In this document: in pieces, positions 2,881 through 20,360 of the stretch
How positions within the stretch are numbered: the stretch's first letter is position 1
Layout of the letters: every line of letters starts with the position of its first letter
IMG/VR virus record: IMGVR_UViG_3300044302_000406
Location: 1 to 20,936 of that record
Direction: 5' to 3' (one strand)
Source of the DNA: a virus
DNA: 20,936 nucleotides
The notes under the pieces: model-generated
What the model was told of the DNA's origin: nothing
Database searches by the model: none
The model's input: the letters and a program-made list of their open reading frames with translations, nothing else
Made by a program: the position numbers and the translations under genes

Positions 2881-5283
2881 ATGGCGCGTGTTTCTACTAT
2901 TATAACCAACTTTCGCGCCGGAGAGTTTTCGCCCCGTCTTGAAGGTCGTATAGACCTACAGAAATACAATGAGGCGGCAAAAGAACTAACCAACATGGTG
3001 AGTTTTCCGCAGGGTGGCATTACACGCCGTCCTGGATCTTACTATGCGGGTGCATCAAAGGATGGCGGCAAAGTCAGGCTGGTAAACTTTGAGTACAGCG
3101 ACGAACAGGCGTATGTGCTGGAGTTTGGTGCCAACTACATCCGGTTCTTCAAAGATGGCGGCATTCTAACAGAAGCTACCAAAACCATTACGGGAGCAAC
3201 GGCGGCAAACCCTGTTGTGGTAACGGCAAGTTCTCACGGGTATGACAACGGGGATCGTGTCTTTATCAAAGATGTTGTTGGGATGACCCAACTAAACAAT
3301 CGTGAATTTACAGTAGCCAACAAAACTACTAACACTTTTGAGTTATCAGGAATTAATGGCAGTGGTTTTACAGCATACAGTAGCGCAGGAACATCTGGTA
3401 AAATTGTAGAAGTAACAACCACTTACTCGGTTACAGAAATTTTTGAGTTAAATCATGTGCAGTCTGCTGATGTGCTGTATCTTGCGCACAAAGACCATGA
3501 GCCAGCCAAGCTGACACGCACAACGGCTACTAGCTTTACTTTGGCTGATATAGATTTTATCGACGGGCCATACCTAGATGAAAACACAACGACAACCACT
3601 ATTTATGCGTCAGCTAATACTGGCAGTGGCATTACCATAACAGCGTCTGCAAGTGTGTTTGCGTCTGCTGATGTGGGGCGTTTGATTAGGTTGCGTGAGG
3701 TTATTGAGGTTCAACACGACGAATGGGCGGCAAGCACCAATTATGCGCAAAATGATTTGGTGCGGTTTGGTAATAATGTATACAAAAAAACTGATAGTGG
3801 TACGGATGCTTCTGGCACATCGCCGCCTGTACATCTTTCCGGCTCTGAAACCTATGGTGATATAACTTGGGCATATCAGCATAGCGGTTCTGGTTATTTG
3901 CAAATCACAGGCTATACCAGCGCAACGGTTGTTACGGCTACCTTCAAAAATACTAATGGCGTTTTGCCAGCAAGTGTCGTTGGCAGCGGCACACCGACAA
4001 CCCGTTGGTCATTGGGTGCCTTTGGGGGAGATCAAAAGTTTCCGCGTGCTGTAGCATTCTATGAAGAGCGTCTGTACTTTGCTGGCACCACAGGTCAACC
4101 ACAAACCATCTTTGGGTCGGTAAGTGCTGACTTTGAAAACCATACACCAGGAACCAATGATGACGATGCTATTAACATTACTATTGCCTCAGATCGTGTC
4201 AATGTAATCAAGCACTTACTGCCAGCGCGGTTTCTTCAGATTCTGACTACAAGTTCTGAGTTTACGCTGTCTGGTGGCACTGGTGCAGAACCTGTAACGC
4301 CTACTAACGTCAACGTCTTGCGTGAGACTACGTTTGGCACATCTAATATTCGGCCAGTGCGTGCTGGCAATAGCACAATCTTGTTGCAGAAAGGTTCTGA
4401 ACGGGTCAAAGAGATCACGTTTGATCTGGATACTGATGGCCTGCTGGGCGTGGATTTAACTATTCTGGCAGAGCATGTGGCCAGTGGTGGCCTAACAGAC
4501 ATGGTTTGGCAGCAGGAGCCAGAGTTAATTCTGTGGTTTGTGCATAGTGATGGCACCCTTGTAGGGCTTACCTATGACCGCGCTAATGGCGCTGTAGGCT
4601 GGCATCAGCATCCGTTAGGCAGTAGTGGTGTTGTTGAAAGCATCACGTCAATCCCAAGCGGTGCAGAAGATCAGGTGTATGTTTCTGTAAAGAGGACAAT
4701 CAACAGTTCTGTTGTGCGCCACATCTGTTATTTGAAGCCCATTGATTTTGGTTCTGATATTGAAGATGCGTTTTTTGTAGATAGTGGCCTTACCTATACT
4801 GGCTCTGACACAACAAGCATTACTGGTCTAAATCACCTAGAGGGTGAAACTGTGCAGATACTGGCAGATGGGTCCACACATCCAGATAAAACTGTTTCTG
4901 GTGGCGCAATCACTCTTGAGCGTAGTGCTGGCAAAGTGCATGTAGGTTACAATTACAGTTCATTCGTTGAAACCCTGCGCTTAGAAGCTGGCGCAGAAGA
5001 TGGTGTTTCCCAAGGTAAAATCAAAAGAATACATGGTGTTACGGTAAGGTTGCTTAATAGCGTGGGCGTTGAACTTGGCCCCGACACAAACAATCTTGAC
5101 CGCATACCGTTCCGCGACAGCAGTATGGCAATGGATACAGCCGTGCCTATGTTTACAGGCGATAAAGAAATTTCGTTTCCATCAGGTTACGACAATGATG
5201 CGCGGGTGGTGGTACAGCAGTCCCAGCCATTGCCCATGACTATCCTTGCAGTTATGAGAAGGTCGAACACGTTTGATGCTTAG
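2881..5283 (+). CDS. Tail tubular protein B (T7 gp12-like nozzle)
   Basis: An 800-residue protein, close to the length of T7 gp12 (794). The N-terminus carries the family signature: NFRAGEFSPRLEGRIDLQKY, followed by the NMVSFPQGGITRRPG block and YVLEFG. Most of the rest is beta-rich, with Thr/Ser/Gly repeats and a segment near residues 280-345 (EWAASTNYAQNDLVRF onward) that resembles an inserted carbohydrate-binding-like or Ig-like beta module. The protein should form the nozzle of the tail, where the fibres attach. Only one base separates it from tail tube A, so the two are probably co-translated. The ribosome site is weak (GTAAGG), consistent with coupling. The insertion's identity is a guess. 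Confidence 0.92.
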   Translation: MARVSTIITNFRAGEFSPRLEGRIDLQKYNEAAKELTNMVSFPQGGITRRPGSYYAGASKDGGKVRLVNFEYSDEQAYVLEFGANYIRFFKDGGILTEATKTITGATAANPVVVTASSHGYDNGDRVFIKDVVGMTQLNNREFTVANKTTNTFELSGINGSGFTAYSSAGTSGKIVEVTTTYSVTEIFELNHVQSADVLYLAHKDHEPAKLTRTTATSFTLADIDFIDGPYLDENTTTTTIYASANTGSGITITASASVFASADVGRLIRLREVIEVQHDEWAASTNYAQNDLVRFGNNVYKKTDSGTDASGTSPPVHLSGSETYGDITWAYQHSGSGYLQITGYTSATVVTATFKNTNGVLPASVVGSGTPTTRWSLGAFGGDQKFPRAVAFYEERLYFAGTTGQPQTIFGSVSADFENHTPGTNDDDAINITIASDRVNVIKHLLPARFLQILTTSSEFTLSGGTGAEPVTPTNVNVLRETTFGTSNIRPVRAGNSTILLQKGSERVKEITFDLDTDGLLGVDLTILAEHVASGGLTDMVWQQEPELILWFVHSDGTLVGLTYDRANGAVGWHQHPLGSSGVVESITSIPSGAEDQVYVSVKRTINSSVVRHICYLKPIDFGSDIEDAFFVDSGLTYTGSDTTSITGLNHLEGETVQILADGSTHPDKTVSGGAITLERSAGKVHVGYNYSSFVETLRLEAGAEDGVSQGKIKRIHGVTVRLLNSVGVELGPDTNNLDRIPFRDSSMAMDTAVPMFTGDKEISFPSGYDNDARVVVQQSQPLPMTILAVMRRSNTFDA

Positions 5284-5698
5284 ATTTTTGCCGTTTGCTC
5301 AAGAGCATGTGCAACACATTAAGTTAATGTTTGATCTTTCTGAGGATGGCCGAAAGGCATTAGTCGAGCATAAAGATATAAGGGGCTACACACTTTTTGA
5401 GGAAGATGTTGTGCTTGGAATTGGTGGCGTACACAACATATGGCAGGGCGTGGGTGAGGCGTGGCTGCTGTTAGGCAGGGAAGCGTTTGCGCGGCCCAGA
5501 ACTGTAGCGCGACATACGGTCAATATGTTTGACCACTTGCAAGAAGAGTATAGGTATCAGCGCATCCAAGCAAGCATTGCAGTAAAAGATGTAAAGGCCA
5601 AAAGGTTTGCAGAATGGCTTGGTTTTGAAAATGAGGGTATAATGAAAAAATATGGGCCTGATGGTTCAGATTACTATCGTTATGCAAGGGTGATGTAA
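5276..5698 (+). CDS. GNAT-fold virion protein in the T7 gp13 slot
   Basis: A 140-residue protein starting at ATG 5276 inside the end of the tail tube B gene; a TTG three bases earlier is a poorer choice. The C-terminal third (AKRFAEWLGFENEGIMKKYG, then DYYRYARV) is a clear match to the last strands and helix of GNAT acetyltransferases, and the central GIGGVH fits the beta-hairpin core. The acetyl-CoA pyrophosphate loop (R/Q-x-x-G-x-G/A) is not visible: the expected site reads LGREAFARPRTVARH. Length and position equal T7 gp13 (138 residues), an internal virion or assembly factor. It may therefore be a structural protein using a GNAT fold, or a phage acetyltransferase with a degenerate cofactor site. 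The catalytic role is unproven. Confidence 0.78.
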   Translation: MLRFLPFAQEHVQHIKLMFDLSEDGRKALVEHKDIRGYTLFEEDVVLGIGGVHNIWQGVGEAWLLLGREAFARPRTVARHTVNMFDHLQEEYRYQRIQASIAVKDVKAKRFAEWLGFENEGIMKKYGPDGSDYYRYARVM

Positions 5699-6207
5699 TG
5701 AATCCAATGACGATTGCAGCAGGGGCGTCAGCAGCCAGCGCATTCCTTGGGTTCAAGGGCAACCAAGCATCAGCGCGTGCAGCGGAGGAAACAGCAGAAT
5801 ACTCGTCTGCAAAGATTTTGAATGAAGCTGTTTTGTTGCAGCGTGCAAAAATTGACCAAGAGGCTAATCTGCGTCGGTCAAATGACCGCCTCACTGCCTC
5901 CCAGACAGTGGCTACGGCAAAGTCTGGCATTGAAATGTCGGGCAGCCCGTATCTTGCTTTGGCCGATAGTTACTTTGCTATGGAGCGTGATGCACTGCGC
6001 ATCCAATACGCATCTGACATCGAACAAGCCGATGCAATGGCAGAGGCAGCTATGAGCCGCGCCAGTGGCGCAGCGCGTGCATCAGGCTTTAGAACAGCGT
6101 CTTATGTAAGTTTGCTAAACGGCGCTAGTGCAGTGGCTGGAATGCAGCAACAACAAGATTTCTTTGCACTGCAAGATCAATACAGACAGAAAACATTATC
6201 GAGTTAG
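5698..6207 (+). CDS. Internal virion protein B-like (T7 gp14 slot)
   Basis: A 169-residue Ala-rich helical protein whose ATG shares one base with the preceding stop (TAATG). Residues 1-20 are small and hydrophobic (TIAAGASAASAFLGF), followed by long helices rich in Ala, Gln and charged residues and a C-terminal QQQQ stretch. T7 gp14 (196 residues) has the same place and similar composition; it leaves the capsid first and forms the outer-membrane part of the ejection channel. The conserved segment TAKSGIEMSGSPYLALADSY resembles the middle of gp14-type proteins (GI-x-x-x-GSP). The assignment rests on order, size and this segment. Confidence 0.75.
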   Translation: MNPMTIAAGASAASAFLGFKGNQASARAAEETAEYSSAKILNEAVLLQRAKIDQEANLRRSNDRLTASQTVATAKSGIEMSGSPYLALADSYFAMERDALRIQYASDIEQADAMAEAAMSRASGAARASGFRTASYVSLLNGASAVAGMQQQQDFFALQDQYRQKTLSS

Positions 6208-6209
6208 AC

Positions 6210-8843
6210 ATGCCAAAAATCCCGTTGTACGCACAAGGCCAAGGAACCGCAGTAGAGCTTGCCACAGGGCGGCTTGGGCCTAAAGCGCCTAGCGCAGCGT
6301 TTGAAGCGCCTGGGCAGGCTGTAGCGCGTGCTGGAGAGGCTTTAGGCAGGGCTGGCACCTCTTACGCTCAAAACGCTATGAGGTTTGAAGACGCGCGTAA
6401 AAAACTGGAATTTGATTTCCAGATGAAACAAAAGCAAGAGCAAACTCGCAATTTAACTAAGAAATATGAGGCGGCAGTGTTTGCTCAAAGCCAAGATTAT
6501 ATTTTGGGGAATACTGAATCGGATCCTTTTAAAGCAGCAGAGAATCTTGCAAGAGATGTTTATACCCCTTTGACTTCTGAAATAGATGCTCTTGATGTAA
6601 CGGACAGTCAAAAAACGGCAATCAAAGGCGCTGTTTTTAGTAAGTTTGCTTATCAACATGCCGACATAAAAAAGTCTGCGCACAATCTTGGCACTTTGCA
6701 AGGTGGGCAAACCACAAACGATAGTCTTGAGGCTGGTCTTACAGAAGCTGGCACTGCATCAGAGGTAAGCGATTTGTTTGGCATTGTGTCGCGTATGAAG
6801 CAAGAAATCCGCGAAGGAAACTTTGCGGGACAGCGCGGTATTGCTTACTCCGAAAAAACCATACAGAAAGAGGCGTATCTGCGTTTTTTTTCTAACGGCA
6901 TAGCTAACTCTGACAGTGTTGCAACCTTGCAAGAACAACGCGACTTAATTGGCTCGGTGCCAAACATAGCAGAGTCCACCAAAAAGACGCTTGAGGGTTT
7001 GATCTCTGGCAGAGAAGCTGACATTAAGGCGGGTCTGCGTGATAATATTTTAGGCTCTATCCTAACAGGAGATTTTGATGAAAGTCAGATGGAGTCGGCA
7101 GCGGCGCAGCTACGCACCAGAGGCGCTACTGAGATCAGGATTGAAGGCAAGGAGGGCGAAGATGACCTCGTGATCCCATTTGGCGGCGCTGGGTTTGACT
7201 TTCTTACTAGCCTCGCCAACACGCTGGATCGCGGGATTGATGACCTTCAGAACGAGAAGAACCGTTCTCTGATTGAAGAGGTTTCGCCAACGATTGTGGC
7301 TATGAACCGCGGTGAGCTTGAAGCCTTGGTTTCGGACGCGCAGTCTGCAAGCGGACAATTTGAAGGCGCTTCACTAACGACAAGAGGTGTTCTTGAGCGG
7401 CTGGCACAGGATCGCTTGAACACTATGGATCGTGAGTTGTCGTCAACGATTGAATCTCAAAAAGAGGCGTTGGGTAACATTCTAATAGCCAACAAAGGCA
7501 TCTTCACAGAAAACGCAACAGAGTTGAGCAACCAGATCAGCGCAAATATTGATATTGTTTCTGACGAAAATGAGCAAATCGGTATCGACTTTGACAACTT
7601 TGTGAACGGCATTGCAATGGGTGGTCAGGTTTTTTCTGGCATCAAGTTCAAGTCGGCGGCAGATGGCAACAGCGCAATCCTTCAGTTGACAGAAGAGTTG
7701 AAGGGTGCTGACGCCAATGAGGCGGCAGTCCTGCAAACTGCAATCGACAGTCTCACCAAGATGGAGGCTGATAGACAGGCGCAGATTACTAATGACCCTG
7801 TAAAATTCATCCAGACAAACCGTGCGCCTGGACAAGAATTAGCCACAACGTCAGAGCTTGTAACTATACAGCAAGGCTTGGGCATAGCTCCTGTAGACAT
7901 TCGCGTGGCGTCTGATCAACAGATCAGCACGTTTCAAGGTCAATTTAGAAACCCAGAGCTAACAGCACGCGAGAAGTCAGAGCTTGGCATTGAGTTTATT
8001 ACGCGGTTTGGCGTCGAGCATGAGGGCCGCGTTATGCGCAACCTTATGAACCAAGGCGTGCTTACGCTTGCTGACACATGGATTATCGCCAACCCTGACA
8101 ATGCCGCAGGTTTTGACATCGACGCAGCTAACCGTCCTGACATTGTAAAGACGCTGAAAGCGGAGCTTGGCAATACAACAGTCAGAGAGATCATGGACGA
8201 AGTGCGCGTGCAGAACGGTGAGTACACCGGCAGTGTGATCGGTGGCATGTCAGATACCCTCATATCTCGCGGTGCCACAGGATCTCGTATGTTGCACATC
8301 ACCGCAATGAATGGCCTGATTCAGAACACCGCTATGTATTACATGCAAGATGGCAAGACGACTGTAAGCGAGGCTGTGGCAAAGGCCATTGATAATGTGG
8401 TCAATACGCAGTTTTCCTTTGCAGAAGTAAACGGCAAGCCCTTGCGTATGTTAAAGGGCCTTGAGGGGCAAGCAAAACCTATCTCTACGTTACTTTCTAG
8501 GCATGTTACAAGTGAGCCGCTGCGCGAATACATTACTAGCATTGCTCAAATACCGCCGCTTGCAGGGCAAAGTGACGAGGCTGCACGCCTTCAGTTTATG
8601 AAAGATTTATCGCAAGGCTACTGGGTTACGACATCTGATCATAAGGGTGCATACTTAGTTGACCAAACCGGCAACATGGTGCCGCGTAAGATTGATCCTA
8701 CACCGTTTGGACCGGTTGATCCAAAAGATGCCTTCATCACAGTGCGATTTGACCAGCTTATCCCAATAATGGAAACATACAATAAAATCGAACAGCTAAA
8801 TAGAAAAAGAGAAGCTATGGATAGATTGAGGCTGTTTGATTAA
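6210..8843 (+). CDS. Internal virion protein C-like (T7 gp15 slot)
   Basis: An 877-residue protein, largely helical, with a Pro/Gly-containing N-terminus (MPKIPLYAQGQGTAVELATG) typical of ejected internal core proteins, then a long charged helical region (residues about 60-110 look coiled-coil-like). T7 gp15 (747 residues) occupies the same slot and forms the periplasmic tunnel of the ejectosome together with gp16. No peptidase or transglycosylase motif could be found by eye. The gene starts two bases after the gp14-like stop and its stop overlaps the next ATG (TAATG at 8841-8845), so the four ejection genes appear co-translated. Function is by synteny and size; sequence similarity across these families is normally low. 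Confidence 0.72.
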   Translation: MPKIPLYAQGQGTAVELATGRLGPKAPSAAFEAPGQAVARAGEALGRAGTSYAQNAMRFEDARKKLEFDFQMKQKQEQTRNLTKKYEAAVFAQSQDYILGNTESDPFKAAENLARDVYTPLTSEIDALDVTDSQKTAIKGAVFSKFAYQHADIKKSAHNLGTLQGGQTTNDSLEAGLTEAGTASEVSDLFGIVSRMKQEIREGNFAGQRGIAYSEKTIQKEAYLRFFSNGIANSDSVATLQEQRDLIGSVPNIAESTKKTLEGLISGREADIKAGLRDNILGSILTGDFDESQMESAAAQLRTRGATEIRIEGKEGEDDLVIPFGGAGFDFLTSLANTLDRGIDDLQNEKNRSLIEEVSPTIVAMNRGELEALVSDAQSASGQFEGASLTTRGVLERLAQDRLNTMDRELSSTIESQKEALGNILIANKGIFTENATELSNQISANIDIVSDENEQIGIDFDNFVNGIAMGGQVFSGIKFKSAADGNSAILQLTEELKGADANEAAVLQTAIDSLTKMEADRQAQITNDPVKFIQTNRAPGQELATTSELVTIQQGLGIAPVDIRVASDQQISTFQGQFRNPELTAREKSELGIEFITRFGVEHEGRVMRNLMNQGVLTLADTWIIANPDNAAGFDIDAANRPDIVKTLKAELGNTTVREIMDEVRVQNGEYTGSVIGGMSDTLISRGATGSRMLHITAMNGLIQNTAMYYMQDGKTTVSEAVAKAIDNVVNTQFSFAEVNGKPLRMLKGLEGQAKPISTLLSRHVTSEPLREYITSIAQIPPLAGQSDEAARLQFMKDLSQGYWVTTSDHKGAYLVDQTGNMVPRKIDPTPFGPVDPKDAFITVRFDQLIPIMETYNKIEQLNRKREAMDRLRLFD

Positions 8844-10627
8844 TGGTAGACTTTTACGTCCCAGAGCAACAATTTGATAAAAACGCTTTCGATAGTTATT
8901 TCGACATATCGAAGGCTGGCACCCTTGATGTGCTTGGCGCTACGCTGGACGAAACCCTTTACTACAACCCTCTCAGCGCATTAAACCGCACGTTTGATCA
9001 GTATGCAGGGCCAGGTGCTGACGGACGCCGATTGTCTGCCGAAGAGCATCGTGAAAGCCAATACTACCGTCCTGGCATTGAGGTGGACGAAGATGGCATG
9101 ACAGAGGGTTTGGCAAATTTGCTTGCTGAACGCTATGACCGTCGTGCTGCGTTTAGATCTACGCTAAACAGATCACGCGGCGGGTTTGGTTTGGGTGCTG
9201 CGCAATTTGGCACCATGCTTGCTGGTTCTGTCATTGACCCTTTTAATATTGCAAGCGCCTTCATACCGACGATTGGTGCAGCGCGTATGGCAACGATGGC
9301 GGCAAAGTATGGGAAGACAGGCAGTCGATTAATTGGTGGTGCAATTAACGGCGCTGTTGGCGCTGTGCCTTTGGAGGCCGCTATTATCCTGCCCCAAGCC
9401 TATCGTGATCAAGATCCTGACTACGGCTTGATGGACAGCTTCCTTAACGTCACTTTTGGCGCTGTGCTTGGTGGTGGACTGCACGCTGGTTTTGGCAAGA
9501 TTTCAGACCGCATCGAAGCAAGCGCAGTGAAGCGTGAGGCATTGGCGCGTTCTATTGTTGATGCGCTAAACGACCAACCAATTAGTGGTCACAAAATAAT
9601 AGAGGCAGAAGAAGCAGCAAAAGACGCTGAGATTATTGCCGCTGCAAACGAGCGTTTGGCTAAAGATCGTTCTGTAAGGGGTGTAGAGCCTAGATTTGAT
9701 CCAAAAACAGGCGACATAGTTGAAGAAACTGTTTTCCGTGGTGATCAAGTGCCTGAGTTTGGTGAGCCGCCTATACGCAAAGGCAAAGCGCGTCCACCGC
9801 GTTTACGTGTTGAAGAGCCAAAAACATTAATACAGTACATTAGGGCAAAGGGTGGCATAGACCCCAACAGCCAAGGTGCCGCTGATTTAAAGGAAGTAAT
9901 ACCTGCTGCAAAATCCGGAAAGTTTTATGTTAGTGCCGCGAAGGGTGGCAGGTCTGTAGATGAAATGTTAACTGCCGCCAGAGAAGATGGATATCTGCCA
10001 GCGGAGATTGAGGGCGTAGCAGATGATATTGGCATCAACGATCTCATTGATGCTGTACGTGAAGACAAGGCTGGCAACAAACAATACTCCATTGCAGATG
10101 CAGATGCTGTGCGTGAATTTGAAAGCGCACAAGACATACAAGATTTCTTGGCAAGAAAGGGCATAGACCCAACCGGCATGACAGACGGAGAGCTTGATCG
10201 CGCAATATCAGAAGCTGAGTTTGTCGATCAACAATTGTCGATTGATGCCGTTGATAGAGATGTAGAGCCATCTGCGCTTGAAGGCTCACCTTTAACACAG
10301 CAAGAGTCATTAAATGCTCAGAATGAGGCATTGATACAAGACTATGATTTAGGTGTTGATATTGATGGCAAGCCTAAATTAGCTGAGTTGGAAGAATCTG
10401 GCATGAACCTGCGTGTGCAGGAGTACCAAGAAACGATTGATGAGATTGCACAGCTAGAGGAAGAGTTGACTATAGCGCGTGCGGATAGCGAAGATGAGTT
10501 ACCGCAAGATTTTATAGACGACATTGAAAGCGCAGATGCAGCGATACGGCGTGCTGACGAGTACATGCCGGAGGCTGTAAAGCGTGCAGCGGTCTGCGTC
10601 TTTGGCAAAAGTGGAGCAGCATCGTGA
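8843..10627 (+). CDS. Internal virion protein D-like, N-terminal part (T7 gp16 slot)
   Basis: A 594-residue protein. Residues about 113-155 (starting GGFGLGAAQFGTMLAG), 164-185 and 204-218 are glycine/alanine-rich hydrophobic stretches that could insert in membranes. After them comes a long acidic, helical region, with a Glu/Asp-rich stretch near residues 525-570. T7 gp16 (1318 residues) begins with a lytic transglycosylase domain, but no Glu-containing transglycosylase signature is visible here. The product ends in KRAAVCVFG plus a short tail, and its stop overlaps the GTG of the next gene (GTGA at 10624-10627). With the next gene it sums to 1434 residues, so I read it as the first half of a split gp16-like inner-membrane ejection protein. 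Two independent ejection proteins are the alternative. Confidence 0.7.
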   Translation: MVDFYVPEQQFDKNAFDSYFDISKAGTLDVLGATLDETLYYNPLSALNRTFDQYAGPGADGRRLSAEEHRESQYYRPGIEVDEDGMTEGLANLLAERYDRRAAFRSTLNRSRGGFGLGAAQFGTMLAGSVIDPFNIASAFIPTIGAARMATMAAKYGKTGSRLIGGAINGAVGAVPLEAAIILPQAYRDQDPDYGLMDSFLNVTFGAVLGGGLHAGFGKISDRIEASAVKREALARSIVDALNDQPISGHKIIEAEEAAKDAEIIAAANERLAKDRSVRGVEPRFDPKTGDIVEETVFRGDQVPEFGEPPIRKGKARPPRLRVEEPKTLIQYIRAKGGIDPNSQGAADLKEVIPAAKSGKFYVSAAKGGRSVDEMLTAAREDGYLPAEIEGVADDIGINDLIDAVREDKAGNKQYSIADADAVREFESAQDIQDFLARKGIDPTGMTDGELDRAISEAEFVDQQLSIDAVDRDVEPSALEGSPLTQQESLNAQNEALIQDYDLGVDIDGKPKLAELEESGMNLRVQEYQETIDEIAQLEEELTIARADSEDELPQDFIDDIESADAAIRRADEYMPEAVKRAAVCVFGKSGAAS

Positions 10628-13146
10628 ACACAAAAGAATGCGGCCAGCAGCTTCTAAAGTTTGCACAAGAGAAGAACATTGCCATAGCGCAAGAAGAAAT
10701 CAATGGCATCGTTAAGGTGATGGAAGAGCTTATCGAAGAGCGTGGTGGTGCCTACAAGGGTGACACTACCCTCAACGATATTACAGGCAAAGCGATTGAG
10801 TTTGCGCGGCAGTCTAAGATCAATGCAGCTATTGAGAAACGCAACCGCCTGATTAATGCGCGTCGTTACTTAGCAGTAATGAATGTAATACGCCAAGAGC
10901 CAAACAATCCTGGCAAAGCGCTGTCTGCTTTGATGGTGGGTGATGCTAGGCGCACGCTACACAGCGTTGATGCCAAGCAGCGTGGTATTATGGTGGATAA
11001 TACGCAAGCACTTGTTGTTGCTTTAAGAAACAAAGGACTATTAGATATTTTTCGTTCTAATGAGCTTGATGAAAAGATATATCAAGAGATGTTTGATGGC
11101 TTTGGCACAAGCGGTAGTAAAGAGGCGAGACAGATAGCAGAAATTGTAAAGCAAGTGCAGAAACGGTTGCTTGATCGTAAAAACCGCGCTGGCGCTAACA
11201 TTGGTGAGCTTGAAAACTATGTGGTGCGGCAACATCACGATCCGCTGTTGATCCGTGGCAAAGGCACACAAGAAGACAAGCAAACATGGATTACGTTTGT
11301 GCAAGAAAACATGGACGTTGAGAAGACGCTTGAGAACAAGCCGCGTGGCATGTCTGTCGAAGACTACCTTGGCGGTATGTGGGACAACCTTGTTAGCGGT
11401 AATCACATGAAGGCTGATGGCGTTGATGCTATGGGTGGCAGTGATCAATCCAGAGCTATGCGTCCATTGCAATTTACTGGCCCTGTCAATCTTGCCAAAA
11501 GAATGAGTGCGCAGCGTATTATCCATTTCAAAAGCGGCCAGTCTGCACTAGCTTATGCAAATAAGTATAGTCGAATGAAATTATCACAAGCGATATATCA
11601 AGGCATTTCTCATGATGCACAGGCTATAGGATTGCTTGAAACTTTTGGCACTAACCCTAGAGCCATGTTTGAACGTATCCTTACAGAGATTCGTCCCAAA
11701 GGCATAAGTAGGGCAATTAAAGAAAATCGTCTTAAAAATGAGTTTGCAGAATTAGATGGCACTACTCGCGCTTTAGGGGCTACGCAAACTATTGGCAACA
11801 CCAGCGTAACATATGCCGGAATTGCTGCTGGATTTCGCATGGTGCAATCTATGGCAAAGCTAGGCTTTGCTACCATTTCATCCTTTTCGGATATCGCAAC
11901 AAAAGCTGCGTTTATTAATTCTAATACAGAGCGTAACATTTTTGGCTCTTATGCTGTTGCTTTGCGTGATACCTTCCGGTTGTTTAATAGTGAGCAACAA
12001 AAAGAACTAGCTTATTTGGTTGGTGTTGGCATCGACAACGAGCTTGCTGATGTTCACGCTAGGTTTGGCGCTAATGACAGTGGCCCTGGAATGATGTCCA
12101 AGGCGCATCAATTATATTTTAAATTAAACGGTATGCAGTGGTGGAACAACACTCAAAAGGTTGGGGTGGCACGCATGTTGGCTGCAGATCTTGCCAACTA
12201 TTCTAATCGTGCATTTGATCAAGTCCCAGCAGAAACCCGCAGATTGCTTGCCCTTTACAATATTAACGAAGGTGAGTGGGGTCTGTTCCGTGGCTTGGAA
12301 ATGAAAGCCGCTGATGGCCGCAACTATCTTGTGCCTGACTTGGTTGAAAACATACCTGATGCTAAACTTGACCCGCTAATTGCAGAACGCGTAGGGCGGC
12401 TAGACATTACTGACAAAATGCGTCGAGATTTTCGTGATGACTTGCGCACTAGGATAGCTGCATATTATGCAGACAGTGCAGACGCGGCAATCCCAACACC
12501 AGGCGCTAGAGAGCGTGCGCTGATGAATCAAGGCTCACCACGCGGCACTGTTACAGGTGAAGCATGGCGTATTGTTATGCAACTGAAAGGCTTTCCTATT
12601 ACTTACGTTACAAAAGGTTTGGGGCGGCAAAAAGCAATGTCAGGTTATTATGGTGTTGCTAAAATGATGGTTGGAACGACGATGATGGGGTATGTTTCGG
12701 TTACTATGAAAGACATTCTCAAAGGCAAAGAGCCTATGGAAGTGTTTGGTGATGATTACACCCTTAACACAGATTTGCTTTTTCGTGCATTTACACAAGG
12801 TGGCGGTGCTGGCATTTACGGCGATTTTATTTTTGGAGAATTTAATAGATATGGACAAGGCCCACTAGAAACACTGATGGGGCCATCGCTAGGTACAGCA
12901 GCAGATGTACTAAAAATTTGGGGTAAGTTTAGGTCTGGCGACGACGCAGCGGCTGAAACTGTGCGCTTGGCTTTCCGCAACATTCCTGGTGCTAACATAT
13001 TCTATGCCAAATTGGCATTAGACTATCTGTTTATGTACGAGCTTACAGAGTTTGCAAATCCAGGCTATTTCAAGCGCATGGAACGTCGCATGGAGAAAGA
13101 CACTGGGCAAGAGTTTTACTTCCCACCATCGCAGTATGTACGATAG
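10624..13146 (+). CDS. Internal virion protein D-like, C-terminal part (T7 gp16 slot)
   Basis: An 840-residue protein starting at GTG 10624, which overlaps the previous stop; GGAG at 10613-10616 gives a ribosome site seven bases upstream, so reinitiation is credible. It is highly helical and basic, with hydrophobic stretches at about 398-430 (AGIAAGFRMVQSMAKLGFAT) and 681-700 (MMVGTTMMGYVSVTM). It ends in RMERRMEKDTGQEFYFPPSQ, a pattern I associate with the C-termini of large podovirus ejection proteins. Expected role: part of the internal core ejected with the genome to build the channel across the inner membrane. It is the last ejectosome gene; a 38-base gap separates it from the fibre gene, as in T7. 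Confidence 0.72.
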   Translation: MNTKECGQQLLKFAQEKNIAIAQEEINGIVKVMEELIEERGGAYKGDTTLNDITGKAIEFARQSKINAAIEKRNRLINARRYLAVMNVIRQEPNNPGKALSALMVGDARRTLHSVDAKQRGIMVDNTQALVVALRNKGLLDIFRSNELDEKIYQEMFDGFGTSGSKEARQIAEIVKQVQKRLLDRKNRAGANIGELENYVVRQHHDPLLIRGKGTQEDKQTWITFVQENMDVEKTLENKPRGMSVEDYLGGMWDNLVSGNHMKADGVDAMGGSDQSRAMRPLQFTGPVNLAKRMSAQRIIHFKSGQSALAYANKYSRMKLSQAIYQGISHDAQAIGLLETFGTNPRAMFERILTEIRPKGISRAIKENRLKNEFAELDGTTRALGATQTIGNTSVTYAGIAAGFRMVQSMAKLGFATISSFSDIATKAAFINSNTERNIFGSYAVALRDTFRLFNSEQQKELAYLVGVGIDNELADVHARFGANDSGPGMMSKAHQLYFKLNGMQWWNNTQKVGVARMLAADLANYSNRAFDQVPAETRRLLALYNINEGEWGLFRGLEMKAADGRNYLVPDLVENIPDAKLDPLIAERVGRLDITDKMRRDFRDDLRTRIAAYYADSADAAIPTPGARERALMNQGSPRGTVTGEAWRIVMQLKGFPITYVTKGLGRQKAMSGYYGVAKMMVGTTMMGYVSVTMKDILKGKEPMEVFGDDYTLNTDLLFRAFTQGGGAGIYGDFIFGEFNRYGQGPLETLMGPSLGTAADVLKIWGKFRSGDDAAAETVRLAFRNIPGANIFYAKLALDYLFMYELTEFANPGYFKRMERRMEKDTGQEFYFPPSQYVR

Positions 13147-14750: not shown

Positions 14751-17700
14751 ATGACTGTAAGTGCAGGTTCTGTCGCTTATAAACTATACACGGGCGATGG
14801 CAGCACGCATGTTTTCGCTTACACGTTTCGCATTTTTAAAGAGACAGAACTACTTGTATTAATTAGAAATAATACAACCGGCGCTATACATATAGCAACA
14901 GACAATGCGCGTAGCGGCAGTTATGATCCTGACACGCATGTCGGCGGCCAAGGTTTGAATACAGCTTATATTCTGTCTGGCGTAGATTCGGCTAGTGGCG
15001 GCAATGTAACATTCAAGTACGATACGGGCAGCCCATCAGACGCGCATTATAGTGGCACAGATTACAGGCCGCAGTCTGGTGAAAGCGTCATTATTATCAG
15101 GTTGCCAACGGTAAGCCAGGAAACAGATTATGTAGTGGGCGGCGCGTTTCCTGCCGAGTCACATGAAGATGCACTTGATAAGCTGACATTCCATGTGCAG
15201 CGTTTAGAAGACAAGGTAAACAAAAGCATTCAAAGGTCAGAGGCTGACACTGGCGTTGTTGGCAGCAGCATAGATAAATCTTTATCAGTATTGCCTGACC
15301 ACGCTACCCTAAAGGGCAAAGTTCTATCGTTTAATTCAAGCACTGGGGCAACAGAGGCAACGATAAGTGCAGCGGATGTTACGTTGCTAACAAGTTCTCA
15401 AACATTAACAAACAAAAGTTTATCAGCACCCATTCTTAGCGGCTCTTCCAGTTCGGCTGGATCTATCCTGTTTAAAGAAGACACAGACAACGGCACCAAT
15501 GCAGTTACATTAATTGGGCCAGCGTCTACAGCAGACATTACAATAACGCTGCCAGCTAACGCAGGCACTATTGCCTTAACGTCTGACATACCTACAAGCG
15601 GCATATCTAGTGGCAATATTGCAACATTTACAAGTGGTGTAGTTGACGATGATTTCCTGCGCATAACTGGCACTGCTGTAGAAGGCCGATCAGCGTCTGA
15701 GGTTTTGTCTGATATTGGCGCACAAGCTAGTTTGACCTTTGGCATTGGTGATGCGAATGCTGTCAAAATTGACAGTGCTTCAGTAGCAGATGATGAGTAT
15801 GCACGCTTTACATCCAGCGGTTTGGAAAGCCGGTCAACATCAGAGGTTCTGTCTGACATTGGCGCTATAAGCACGTCAAGCACTGACACCCTTACAAATA
15901 AAACGCTAACCAGTGCAGTGTTGAACGACACTATTTCCGGCACCAGCATTAAAGATGAAGACAACATGGCGTCTGACAGCGCCAGTCATTTGGCCACACA
16001 ACAGTCCATCAAAGCCTACGTTGATGCAGAAATTTCTGGAGTTTCAGCAGGTGATATTACTGGCGTTACGGCTGGCACAGGGCTGTCTGGCGGCGGTTCT
16101 TCTGGTGATGTTACCCTTAATGTTGATACTGGTATATCAAACGGCCAGATAGCGGCCTTTACCAGCGGTGCTGTAGACAACGATTTCCTCAGAATAGATG
16201 GCACAGCCATCGAAGGGCGTTCTGCTTCTGAAGTGCTGTCAGACATCGGTGGTCAGGCTAGTCTGACATTTGGCATATCCAATACCAATGCCGTAAAGAT
16301 TGACAGCGGTGATGTCGCAGATGACGAGTATGCACGATTTACAGCAAACGGTCTGGAGAGTCGGTCAACCAGCGAGGTGTTGTCTGACATAGGCGCACAG
16401 GCATCACTTACCTTTGGCATATCAAATACCAACGCGGTCAAGATCGACAGCGCATCTGTTGCTGACGATGAATATGCGCGGTTTACTGCAAACGGCTTAG
16501 AGAGCAGAGCAACATCTGAGGTTCTTTCGGACATAGGCGCAATAACAGCTAGTTCCTCTGATACACTTACAAACAAAACGATAGATGCTTCCCAATTATC
16601 TGGCACAGTCGCCAACGCTAGATTGGACGCGCAACTTCAAGATGTGGCTGGCCTCGCTGTAACAGACGGCAACTTTATTGTGGGTGATGGCAGCAACTTT
16701 GTTGCAGAGTCCGGTGCTACTGCCAGAACAAGTCTGGGGCTTGGCACTGCAGCGGTGCTGGACACAGGTATATCGAATACGAATGTCCCAAAGTTTACGT
16801 CCGGTGTTGCAGACGATGATTTTCTACGAGTAAACGGAACAGATATCGAAGGTCGCTCTGCCTCTGAAGTTTTGTCTGACATAGCGGCCATGCCACTGGC
16901 TGGCGGCACGTTTACAGGCGATGTCACCTTCACTGGCGATGTTGTTGCGATTACTTCAACGGATGCCGGTACAAGTGCTGCACCTTCGTTACAGCTTTAC
17001 CGCAATAGTTCATCCCCTGCCGATGACGATGACATTGGTCAAATACAATTTTTCGGACAAAATGATGCGGGAACTCCTGAAAAAATTGAGTATGGCCGTA
17101 TAGATGTGAAAATTGAGGACGCTTCTGACGGAACAGAGGATGCCGCTCTTGACTTAGTTGCAATGCGTAGCGGTGCAGCCACTATTTATCAAAGGATGGC
17201 GTTCGGTCTAAGTCAGTTTTACAAGACAATTTATCTTGGCACTAACGTAGATATTACGTTTGAGGGTGATAATTATAACGACCACGAAACCACGTTGACC
17301 GTTGCTGACCCAACAGGTGATCGTACCATCACGTTTCCCGACGCCACCGGTACAGTAGCCCTGACCAACGGCAACGCAGTTCTTCTGAACACGACGACGG
17401 TCAGCAGTGGAGTGTCCAGCGTTGATTTTGGGTCGAGCCTAATTACTGATACTTACAACGATTATCTGCTAGTCGTATCGGGGGCAACAGTTTCGGCATT
17501 GACTAGACTGAGGATGCGATTAGGCACAAGCAACGCTCAAGACACAAGCACTATTTATGTAAGTCGTGTAGTGACGGAGGGTCGTGCTTTAGATCACACA
17601 GCGACCTCTACAGATGCTCCTTCTAGGTTTATAAACACAAATAATGCCGGACAATGGAACCTAACCGGAGACAGCACATACGAAACAAGCCCTTCTTCTA

Positions 17701-17963
17701 CCGCACAATTCAACGCTGTAATTCGTCTATCAAATTTGCGTTCAACTGCTTTTCACAAAACATTTCAAATAGAATCCATGACACACATTGTTCAAGATCA
17801 CAGCGGCGGCACAGATGATGGGCAAGACTATTATCAAACAGTAAGACTAGGAGGCGGCGTCTATAAAAGCACAACAGCCGTCAACTTTATCCGTTTTTAT
17901 GAGCATGATTTTAGCACTCAGATAGATGGCGGCACTTTCAGTTTATACGGATTACCGGCATGA
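14751..17963 (+). CDS. Tail fibre protein 2, long, with 48-residue repeats
   Basis: A 1070-residue fibre. AAGGGG at 14736-14741 serves the ATG at 14751. Residues 1-165 are a second T7-type attachment domain (FAYTFRIFKETELLVLIR, SASGGNVTF, DYVVGGAFPAESHEDALDKL) with an extra insertion of some 30 residues compared with fibre 1, followed by a coiled helix (HVQRLEDKVNKSIQR). Then come TLTNKSL modules, six repeat cores (residues about 287-711), a SHLATQQSIKAYVD helix, a GTFTGDVTFTGDV region, a segment starting DIGQIQFFGQNDAGTPEKIE, a DRTITFPDATGTVAL strand, and a tip ending in GTFSLYGLPA. These are common building blocks of fibres in marine phages. It probably carries the main receptor-binding tip. 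The stop overlaps the next ATG (ATGA), tying it to a fibre-assembly-like gene. Confidence 0.88.
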   Translation: MTVSAGSVAYKLYTGDGSTHVFAYTFRIFKETELLVLIRNNTTGAIHIATDNARSGSYDPDTHVGGQGLNTAYILSGVDSASGGNVTFKYDTGSPSDAHYSGTDYRPQSGESVIIIRLPTVSQETDYVVGGAFPAESHEDALDKLTFHVQRLEDKVNKSIQRSEADTGVVGSSIDKSLSVLPDHATLKGKVLSFNSSTGATEATISAADVTLLTSSQTLTNKSLSAPILSGSSSSAGSILFKEDTDNGTNAVTLIGPASTADITITLPANAGTIALTSDIPTSGISSGNIATFTSGVVDDDFLRITGTAVEGRSASEVLSDIGAQASLTFGIGDANAVKIDSASVADDEYARFTSSGLESRSTSEVLSDIGAISTSSTDTLTNKTLTSAVLNDTISGTSIKDEDNMASDSASHLATQQSIKAYVDAEISGVSAGDITGVTAGTGLSGGGSSGDVTLNVDTGISNGQIAAFTSGAVDNDFLRIDGTAIEGRSASEVLSDIGGQASLTFGISNTNAVKIDSGDVADDEYARFTANGLESRSTSEVLSDIGAQASLTFGISNTNAVKIDSASVADDEYARFTANGLESRATSEVLSDIGAITASSSDTLTNKTIDASQLSGTVANARLDAQLQDVAGLAVTDGNFIVGDGSNFVAESGATARTSLGLGTAAVLDTGISNTNVPKFTSGVADDDFLRVNGTDIEGRSASEVLSDIAAMPLAGGTFTGDVTFTGDVVAITSTDAGTSAAPSLQLYRNSSSPADDDDIGQIQFFGQNDAGTPEKIEYGRIDVKIEDASDGTEDAALDLVAMRSGAATIYQRMAFGLSQFYKTIYLGTNVDITFEGDNYNDHETTLTVADPTGDRTITFPDATGTVALTNGNAVLLNTTTVSSGVSSVDFGSSLITDTYNDYLLVVSGATVSALTRLRMRLGTSNAQDTSTIYVSRVVTEGRALDHTATSTDAPSRFINTNNAGQWNLTGDSTYETSPSSTAQFNAVIRLSNLRSTAFHKTFQIESMTHIVQDHSGGTDDGQDYYQTVRLGGGVYKSTTAVNFIRFYEHDFSTQIDGGTFSLYGLPA
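15609..16883 (+). repeat. Two-type 48-residue repeat array in fibre 2
   Basis: Six cores ending in SEVLSDI, coded at 15696, 15840, 16227, 16371, 16515 and 16863. Tandem neighbours are exactly 144 bases (48 residues) apart: a 36-residue core plus a 12-residue linker of the GAQASLTFGI type. There are two core types. Type A has DDFLR-I, then EGRSASEVLSDI (cores 1, 3, 6). Type B has KIDS, then ADDEYARF, then ESRSTSEVLSDI or a close variant (cores 2, 4, 5). The order is A-B, spacer, A-B-B, spacer, A. The A-B blocks both end in DTLTNKT. Confidence 0.9.
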
Positions 17964-19756: not shown

Positions 19757-19914
19757 TGGCAAAGAAACCTGGCTTATATGCAAATATCCACGCAAAACGT
19801 AAGCGCATTGCTGCTGGCTCTGGAGAAAAAATGCGCAAGGTTGGTAGCAAGGGTGCGCCTACTGCTAAAGCATTTAAACGATCTGCAAAAACTGCCAAGA
19901 AAAAGAAGAAATGA
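19756..19914 (+). CDS. Lysine-rich small basic protein 1
   Basis: A 52-residue protein with TGATG and ATGA overlaps at its two ends. Nineteen residues are Lys or Arg and only one is acidic; the C-terminus is five lysines. The N-terminus MAKKPGLYANIHAKRKRIAAG is followed by a KMRKVGSKGAPTAKAFKRS stretch. I remember nearly the same pattern (KKPGL-x-ANI-x-AKRKRIAAGSGEK) from many marine phages. Nucleic-acid or polyanion binding, for example packing DNA in the head, is plausible from charge alone. No function is established to my knowledge. It is the gene directly before the lysozyme. Confidence 0.75.
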   Translation: MAKKPGLYANIHAKRKRIAAGSGEKMRKVGSKGAPTAKAFKRSAKTAKKKKK

Positions 19915-20360
19915 ACAAAGATAAGCTACGTCAAGAGCTTGCAGAGGACGAGGGCTGCAAGTACGAAGTGTACCTCGATCACTTAGCACTACCCACGTTC
20001 GGTCTGGGCCATCTAATAGTGGAAGATGATCCAGAACACGGTCAGCCTGTTGGCACACCTGTCTCTGAGGAGCGTGTGCGTCAGGCATTTTCTCTTGATG
20101 TTGCTGTCACGATTGATGAGTGCAAAGTGCTGTATCCTGACTTTGATGATCTGCCAGAAGAGTGCCAACTTATTATTGCAAACATGATGTTTAATATGGG
20201 AAGGCCGCGTCTCTCCAAATTTAAGGGTATGAAGGCTGGTGTAGATGCTAGAGATTGGAACAGGGCGGCAGACGAGATGGTGGACAGCCGCTGGCACGAT
20301 CAAGTCCCCAACAGGGCCAAGCGACTTGTCAAACGTATGAGGGCTTTGTCTGATGGCTAA
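19911..20360 (+). CDS. Endolysin, T4-type lysozyme (GH24 muramidase)
   Basis: A 149-residue protein starting in an ATGA overlap. The catalytic triad of T4 lysozyme (Glu11, Asp20, Thr26) is matched with identical spacing by Glu14, Asp23 and Thr29 (EDEG, YLDH, LPTFGLGH). The rest has the family's helical C-terminal lobe (IIANMMFNMG, then a WNRAADEMVDSRW helix ending KRLVKRM). It cuts the beta-1,4 bond between N-acetylmuramic acid and N-acetylglucosamine in peptidoglycan. There is no signal peptide, so a holin is needed for release, consistent with the membrane proteins upstream. The ending overlaps the next gene by eight bases. Confidence 0.93.
   Translation: MNKDKLRQELAEDEGCKYEVYLDHLALPTFGLGHLIVEDDPEHGQPVGTPVSEERVRQAFSLDVAVTIDECKVLYPDFDDLPEECQLIIANMMFNMGRPRLSKFKGMKAGVDARDWNRAADEMVDSRWHDQVPNRAKRLVKRMRALSDG

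Follow-up and report, generated by a model that had tools for sequence, protein, structure and literature searches.

The inner-membrane ejection protein gp16 of phage T7 is the product of one gene and has an N-terminal SLT domain (Pfam match at E = 1.7e-31). Its membrane regions lie at residues 243-410 and 1119-1290, according to the available part of PMC8954989, which also states that SLT is absent in P22 and Sf6; SLT is therefore not a feature of the whole gp16 superfamily, as far as that part goes. SP6 gp37 is likewise a single gene, of 1270 aa. The closest described arrangements to the one studied here are the adjacent pairs behind the gp15 slot in epsilon15-type phages (gp16/gp17), VP5 (gp17/gp18), HTVC100P (gp45/gp44), Skadi-4 (gp11/gp12), and Ab31 (ORF15/ORF16). 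The accessible text of PMC8954989 finds the epsilon15 gp16-like proteins little similar to T7, and the portion of PMC8402733 (2021) at hand sees no recognizable relationship among the P22, T7, and epsilon15 proteins. In extracts, PMC5850374 describes epsilon15 gp17 as a core protein, PMC12391199 speaks of gp17/16, and PMC10504331 gives Skadi three internal virion proteins plus a glycoside hydrolase. Table 1 in the available part of PMC8954989 lists epsilon15 gp11, gp12, and gp13 as 229, 499, and 708 aa, sizes that misfit the NC_004775 coordinates (201, 825, and 154 aa). In the literature searched, we found no statement that the epsilon15-type pair is a divided gp16, and a text search of the Ab31 paper found no virion proteomics.

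The window, by which we mean the whole stretch of viral DNA that was analyzed, is a record of 20,936 bases. It contains a T7-type tail and ejection module on the plus strand, in which the sizes that the first-pass annotation had given for the gp11 to gp15 slots (198, 800, 140, 169, and 877 aa) were confirmed. The gp11 slot, with its ATG at 2283 (2283-2879), encodes a tail adaptor protein (phrog_394), and the gp12 slot (2881-5283) encodes a tail nozzle protein (phrog_376). The product of the gp13 slot (5276-5698) is GNAT-like and matches the internal virion protein family phrog_308 at E = 5.7e-11; its length is 140 aa counted from the ATG and 141 aa if counted from a TTG. The gp14-slot protein (5698-6207) matches the internal virion protein family phrog_418 at E = 3.1e-6, and its match to Pfam T7_gp14, at 7.6e-4, falls under the family cut-off. 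The gp15 slot (6210-8843) is assigned by position and by a weak match of its family profile to the C-terminal end of T7 gp15 (27.6, permuted maximum 22.4). PHROG and Pfam searches gave no family match for this protein, and no muralytic domain was seen among the 15 members of its family alignment. On the 3' side of the ejection genes, a long ORF at 14751-17963, for which Pfam gave no match, has an imperfect 144-bp tandem repeat at 16269-16541. A Phage_lysozyme endolysin at 19911-20360 (E = 2.8e-7) is the sole muralytic domain match among the Pfam-scanned proteins of the window.

Directly behind the gp14 and gp15 slots, two plus-strand ORFs together occupy the gp16 slot, and this layout is read directly from the DNA. 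The first, gp16-N (P0001, phrog_3003), starts with ATG and encodes 594 aa (8843-10627); the second, gp16-C (P0002, phrog_684), starts with GTG and encodes 840 aa (10624-13146). They share a GTGA stop/start overlap at 10624-10627, and GGAG at 10613-10616, seven bases before the GTG, is the likely ribosome-binding site of the second gene; on re-reading, these elements were all as first described. Residues 4-837 of gp16-C align over the full length of the phrog_684 profile (3-827 of 840, E = 2e-152), the same family as epsilon15 gp17, and the second genes of the pairs named above also match phrog_684 over their full length. gp16-N is of the VP5, HTVC100P, and Ab31 kind, whereas epsilon15 gp16 belongs to another PHROG family and is weakly matched by the P0001-type profile (4.7 bits). 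We consider it very probable that these ORFs encode a single gp16-type inner-membrane ejection protein in two parts, an N-terminal and a C-terminal module, which coupled translation yields as separate subunits.

The sequence correspondence to gp16 is observed directly in both proteins. In gp16-N, a membrane module at residues 105-229 (9155-9529, plus strand) aligns by hhalign to T7 gp16 312-419 and to part of SP6 gp37 57-205, and hydropathy places a hydrophobic stretch at residues 162-184. The P0001-family profile scored 59.9 against T7 gp16 and 55.5 against SP6 gp37, with permuted maxima of 29.6 and 28.4; the hhalign controls consisted of 40 column-permuted profiles per pair. Furthermore, residues 118-416 match the gp16 family phrog_342 (profile 311-429, E = 6.6e-15), which is also matched by 30 of the 30 members of the P0001-family alignment A1 and by the VP5 counterpart (2e-10). 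In a reversed-sequence control with 502 ORFs, the narrow profile A1 found VP5 gp17 at 20.5 bits, and T7 and SP6 gp16 were not above decoys; an HMM search of PDB sequences with the A1 and A2 profiles gave nothing relevant. The remainder of gp16-N is a variable tail, residues 247-594 (9581-10624, plus strand), with a mean pairwise identity of 0.25 compared with 0.56 for residues 1-246 and with no Pfam family at E 0.01. Pfam found no SLT transglycosylase in gp16-N, in gp16-C, or in the 30 members of A1. The pair thus differs from T7 gp16 both in being two genes and in giving no SLT hit.

The corresponding C-terminal module of gp16-C is at residues 649-802 (12568-13029, plus strand), which align by hhalign to SP6 gp37 1091-1268, so that the match reaches residue 1268 of 1270. 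The P0002-family profile scored 79.5 against SP6 gp37 (permuted maximum 28.1), the strongest fused profile match for this protein, 33.1 against T7 gp16 at the matching place (permuted maximum 24.3), and 74.4 against T7 and SP6 together (permuted maximum 24.6). The reversed-sequence control on 502 ORFs with the P0002-type profile ranked two phrog_684 proteins first, followed by SP6 gp37 at 14.4 bits and T7 gp16 at 11.0 bits, the best decoy among the matches listed being at 7.3. Five of the 31 members of alignment A4, which comprises gp16-C and relatives, match phrog_342 (best 7.6e-9), and in one of these, L079, residues 622-711 match profile positions 1057-1151; gp16-C itself gave no phrog_342 match. 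Hydropathy shows no hydrophobic 21-residue window above 1.3 in gp16-C. The stretches of T7 gp16 matched by gp16-N and by the C-terminal part of gp16-C overlap its membrane regions at 243-410 and 1119-1290, as these are given in the available part of PMC8954989.

The hhalign comparisons with narrow alignments had been weak (probabilities of 31.8% and 0.7%), and broader families were used instead. With both halves, the T7 gp15 and SP6 gp36 control families gave 18-20. When the halves were joined in silico as a test of collinearity, the same two blocks were obtained, in order, on both SP6 and T7. The earlier proposal that this is a split gp16 is therefore supported, since both halves map in order to T7 and SP6 gp16 by profiles, and gp16-C matches T7 gp16 also by structure. 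The single-gene HTVC019P fused family was considered as a bridge and dropped because it gave no usable match: against gp16-C it scored 25.3 with a permuted maximum of 26.9, which is no match, and its match to gp16-N was off the membrane module. Kinship between the gp16-N and gp16-C families was also considered, and direct comparison showed them to be unrelated.

Structure prediction against T7 gp16, which the first-pass annotation had proposed as a check, bore out the reading for one protein of the two: the gp16-C model has a gp16-like fold, and the gp16-N model gave no gp16 match. AlphaFold confidence was modest (pLDDT 66.9 for gp16-N and 64.0 for gp16-C), and Foldseek of both models against the PDB returned no hit at E ≤ 0.001. 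In VIA-align, where unrelated helical models can score as high as Z 13, the four top rows for gp16-C of 963 chains aligned were all gp16-type core proteins: T7 gp16 chains 9jyy_I (Z 10.3, rmsd 5.4, 291 aligned, model 91-615 to chain 523-1275) and 7eyb_I (Z 8.6), the E1004 core 9vvp_O (Z 7.5), and the PhiM1 core 8vb2_A (Z 7.1). The next row was at Z 5.4. The best for gp16-N among 243 chains was Z 4.3, with no gp16 row. The model (m5adb0de93bba) thus points to a gp16 core fold in gp16-C, strongest over residues 91-385 (10894-11778, plus strand), where the core chains of the three phages, T7, E1004, and PhiM1, agree. At the far end, the structure pairs model residue 615 with T7 1275, whereas the sequence pairs gp16-C residue 645 with T7 1099, and because of this disagreement only residues 91-385 are solid structurally; for the part beyond them we follow the sequence alignment. 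Since the membrane module of gp16-N ends at about residue 229 (T7 419) and residue 91 of gp16-C corresponds to T7 523, the junction would lie between about 420 and 520 in T7 terms, with about 350 extra residues in gp16-N. The likeness to T7 gp16 extends to the module slot, the N-terminal membrane module, the C-terminal motif, and the core fold. That to SP6 gp37 comprises the membrane module near the N-terminus and the matching C-terminus, although SP6 has one gene and this locus has two.

Fused forms exist among relatives. A broader search in two scans, contributing 80 loci each, together with the earlier loci gave at least 212 loci with a P0002-type ORF, 195 of which have at least 600 nt upstream; in the 195 loci listed, the P0001-type module is in a separate ORF in 159, in the same ORF in four, and undetected in 32. 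A fifth fusion, L235, is too near its contig end to count among the 195, so that five natural fusions are found among the 212 loci listed. The fused ORFs measure, from stop to stop, 2749 aa (L235), 2387 aa (L242), 1460 aa (L256), 1908 aa (L274), and 1665 aa (L280), and the fusions keep the order membrane module, variable middle, C-terminal part. Two further loci, L230 and L275, may be truncated fusions, as each begins at the end of its contig. Four fused rows on a 119-row tree need three changes, a number as low in 13 of 500 shuffles; L242 is absent from this tree, dropped by dereplication at 70% identity, and gains are indistinguishable from losses. In L280 (3391-8355), a MuF_C domain is inserted between the halves at residues 453-547 (E = 3.2e-30). 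L235 (103-8349) and L242 (1228-8388) are single ORFs with more than 1000 residues between the gp16 halves, and neither gave a Pfam match. L256 (4126-8475), from a MAG with the label Oscillospiraceae, encodes a fused protein of 1450 aa, and by eye there is presumably an HExxH-like stretch between its halves. The separate first gene of Piluca has weak SLT and strong ddrB-ParB matches, and that of the APEC phage has ddrB-ParB. These cargo-bearing relatives fit the idea of injected multi-domain proteins, as far as it is set out in the available part of PMC5512222. A cargo domain in the tail of gp16-N itself is an unproven candidate: Pfam gave no match there, and tblastn of 9797-10270 gave weak hits in eight phage records.

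What, then, is the 594-residue protein? It might be an independent fourth ejection protein with injected cargo, the 840-residue protein being the true gp16 equivalent, so that gp16 would not be divided at all. The poor conservation of the tail fits this, as do the transglycosylase-like and ddrB-ParB domains that occupy the same slot in Piluca and the APEC phage, and the different PHROG family found there in epsilon15. However, the stretch aligning with T7 and SP6 gp16 lies within the conserved residues 1-246, and the natural fusions preserve the order of the modules, and we regard this alternative as unlikely.

The divided form itself is real and conserved, which is observed directly in the relatives. 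Scanning viral contigs with the 840-aa protein gave 71 loci, which with 11 named phages made 82, and in 66 of these BLAST also detects a homologue of the 594-aa protein. The 16 left out are nine scan contigs without a detected 594-aa homologue, several of which start at or near the match, and seven named phages whose first protein was not BLAST-matched. Two genes occupy the gp16 slot in epsilon15, Tyrion, VP5, phiVC8, HTVC100P, and Skadi-4, and also in Ab31, Vibrio 1.182.O, Piluca, Acinetobacter MD-2021a, and vB_EcoM_APEC. In a phage collection, 113 records have a homologue of the 840-aa protein, and in 104 of them a single place spans 80% or more of the query. A single uninterrupted gene, as in the T7 subtype, is found neither here nor in any of the 66 BLAST-paired loci, all of which have two genes; the comparison with relatives that had been suggested to look for fused forms thus leaves the split standing among close relatives. 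The two-gene form is the usual layout in a large branch of short-tailed phages and is ordinary there. By the gene calls, 56 of the 66 loci have a 4-nt overlap and four a 1-nt overlap, and the genes of the remaining six are 1, 2, or 47 nt apart; counted over distinct 60-nt junctions, the 4-nt overlap occurs in 37 of 44. The second gene starts with ATG in 62 loci and with GTG in four, and a ribosome-site-like 4-mer precedes it in 55.

These junctions also bear on whether -1 frameshifting nearby could join both ORFs into one protein, which the first-pass annotation had thought possible in principle. The frame of the 840-aa ORF does stay open over the 66 nt that precede its GTG, in agreement with the open frame first noted from 10558. 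However, a slippery heptamer, of which none had been seen at the outset, is absent on closer inspection as well: there is no X XXY YYZ heptamer at 10500-10630, and none in frame in the 66 overlap windows. The open window, 4 to 118 nt long, is not conserved; in six loci the genes as called do not overlap; and the stop/start overlap and ribosome-site-like motif are kept in most loci. Frameshift fusion is therefore unsupported, and we consider it very improbable. A sequencing or assembly error that broke a single gp16 gene, to which the five fused relatives might lend some color, is refuted to near certainty by the relatives, since independent contigs share the split with the start codon at the same place, none of the 66 loci has the halves fused, and L016 and L017, at 85-91% protein identity, carry an identical split.

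With the divided gp16 as the preferred reading, a single message would give two subunits by translational coupling at the stop/start overlap, and these likely act together as one gp16. The first subunit would supply the N-terminal membrane module and the variable tail, and the second the helical core body and the C-terminal module. The internal core above the portal is the most likely place for the subunits to come together again; once ejected, they would most likely do so where the DNA channel ends at the inner membrane. We infer virion packaging, subunit association, membrane insertion, and stoichiometry, as well as coupled translation. The junction is just behind a fast-changing region that holds extra domains in some relatives, and the split is thus most readily understood as one form that a modular protein with a variable middle can take.

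The family of the second gene, phrog_684, is large and already known; the value of the finding is in the correspondence to T7 and SP6 gp16 and in the fused, cargo-bearing relatives. A wider reading, which we hold to be evenly balanced between right and wrong, is that the epsilon15-type pilot proteins and T7-type gp16 form one superfamily with two separable membrane modules, a middle that docks injected cargo domains, and repeated switching between one-gene and two-gene forms, in which case DNA entry would not require the covalent link between those modules. If right, the ejection proteins of T7 and epsilon15, called not recognizably related in the portion of PMC8402733 at hand, would become linked, and the gp16 middle would be a site at which phages accommodate additional injected domains. 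Furthermore, gp16 would be naturally dissected into two subunits, so that expressing these separately could test whether the two membrane regions of gp16 work jointly or independently.
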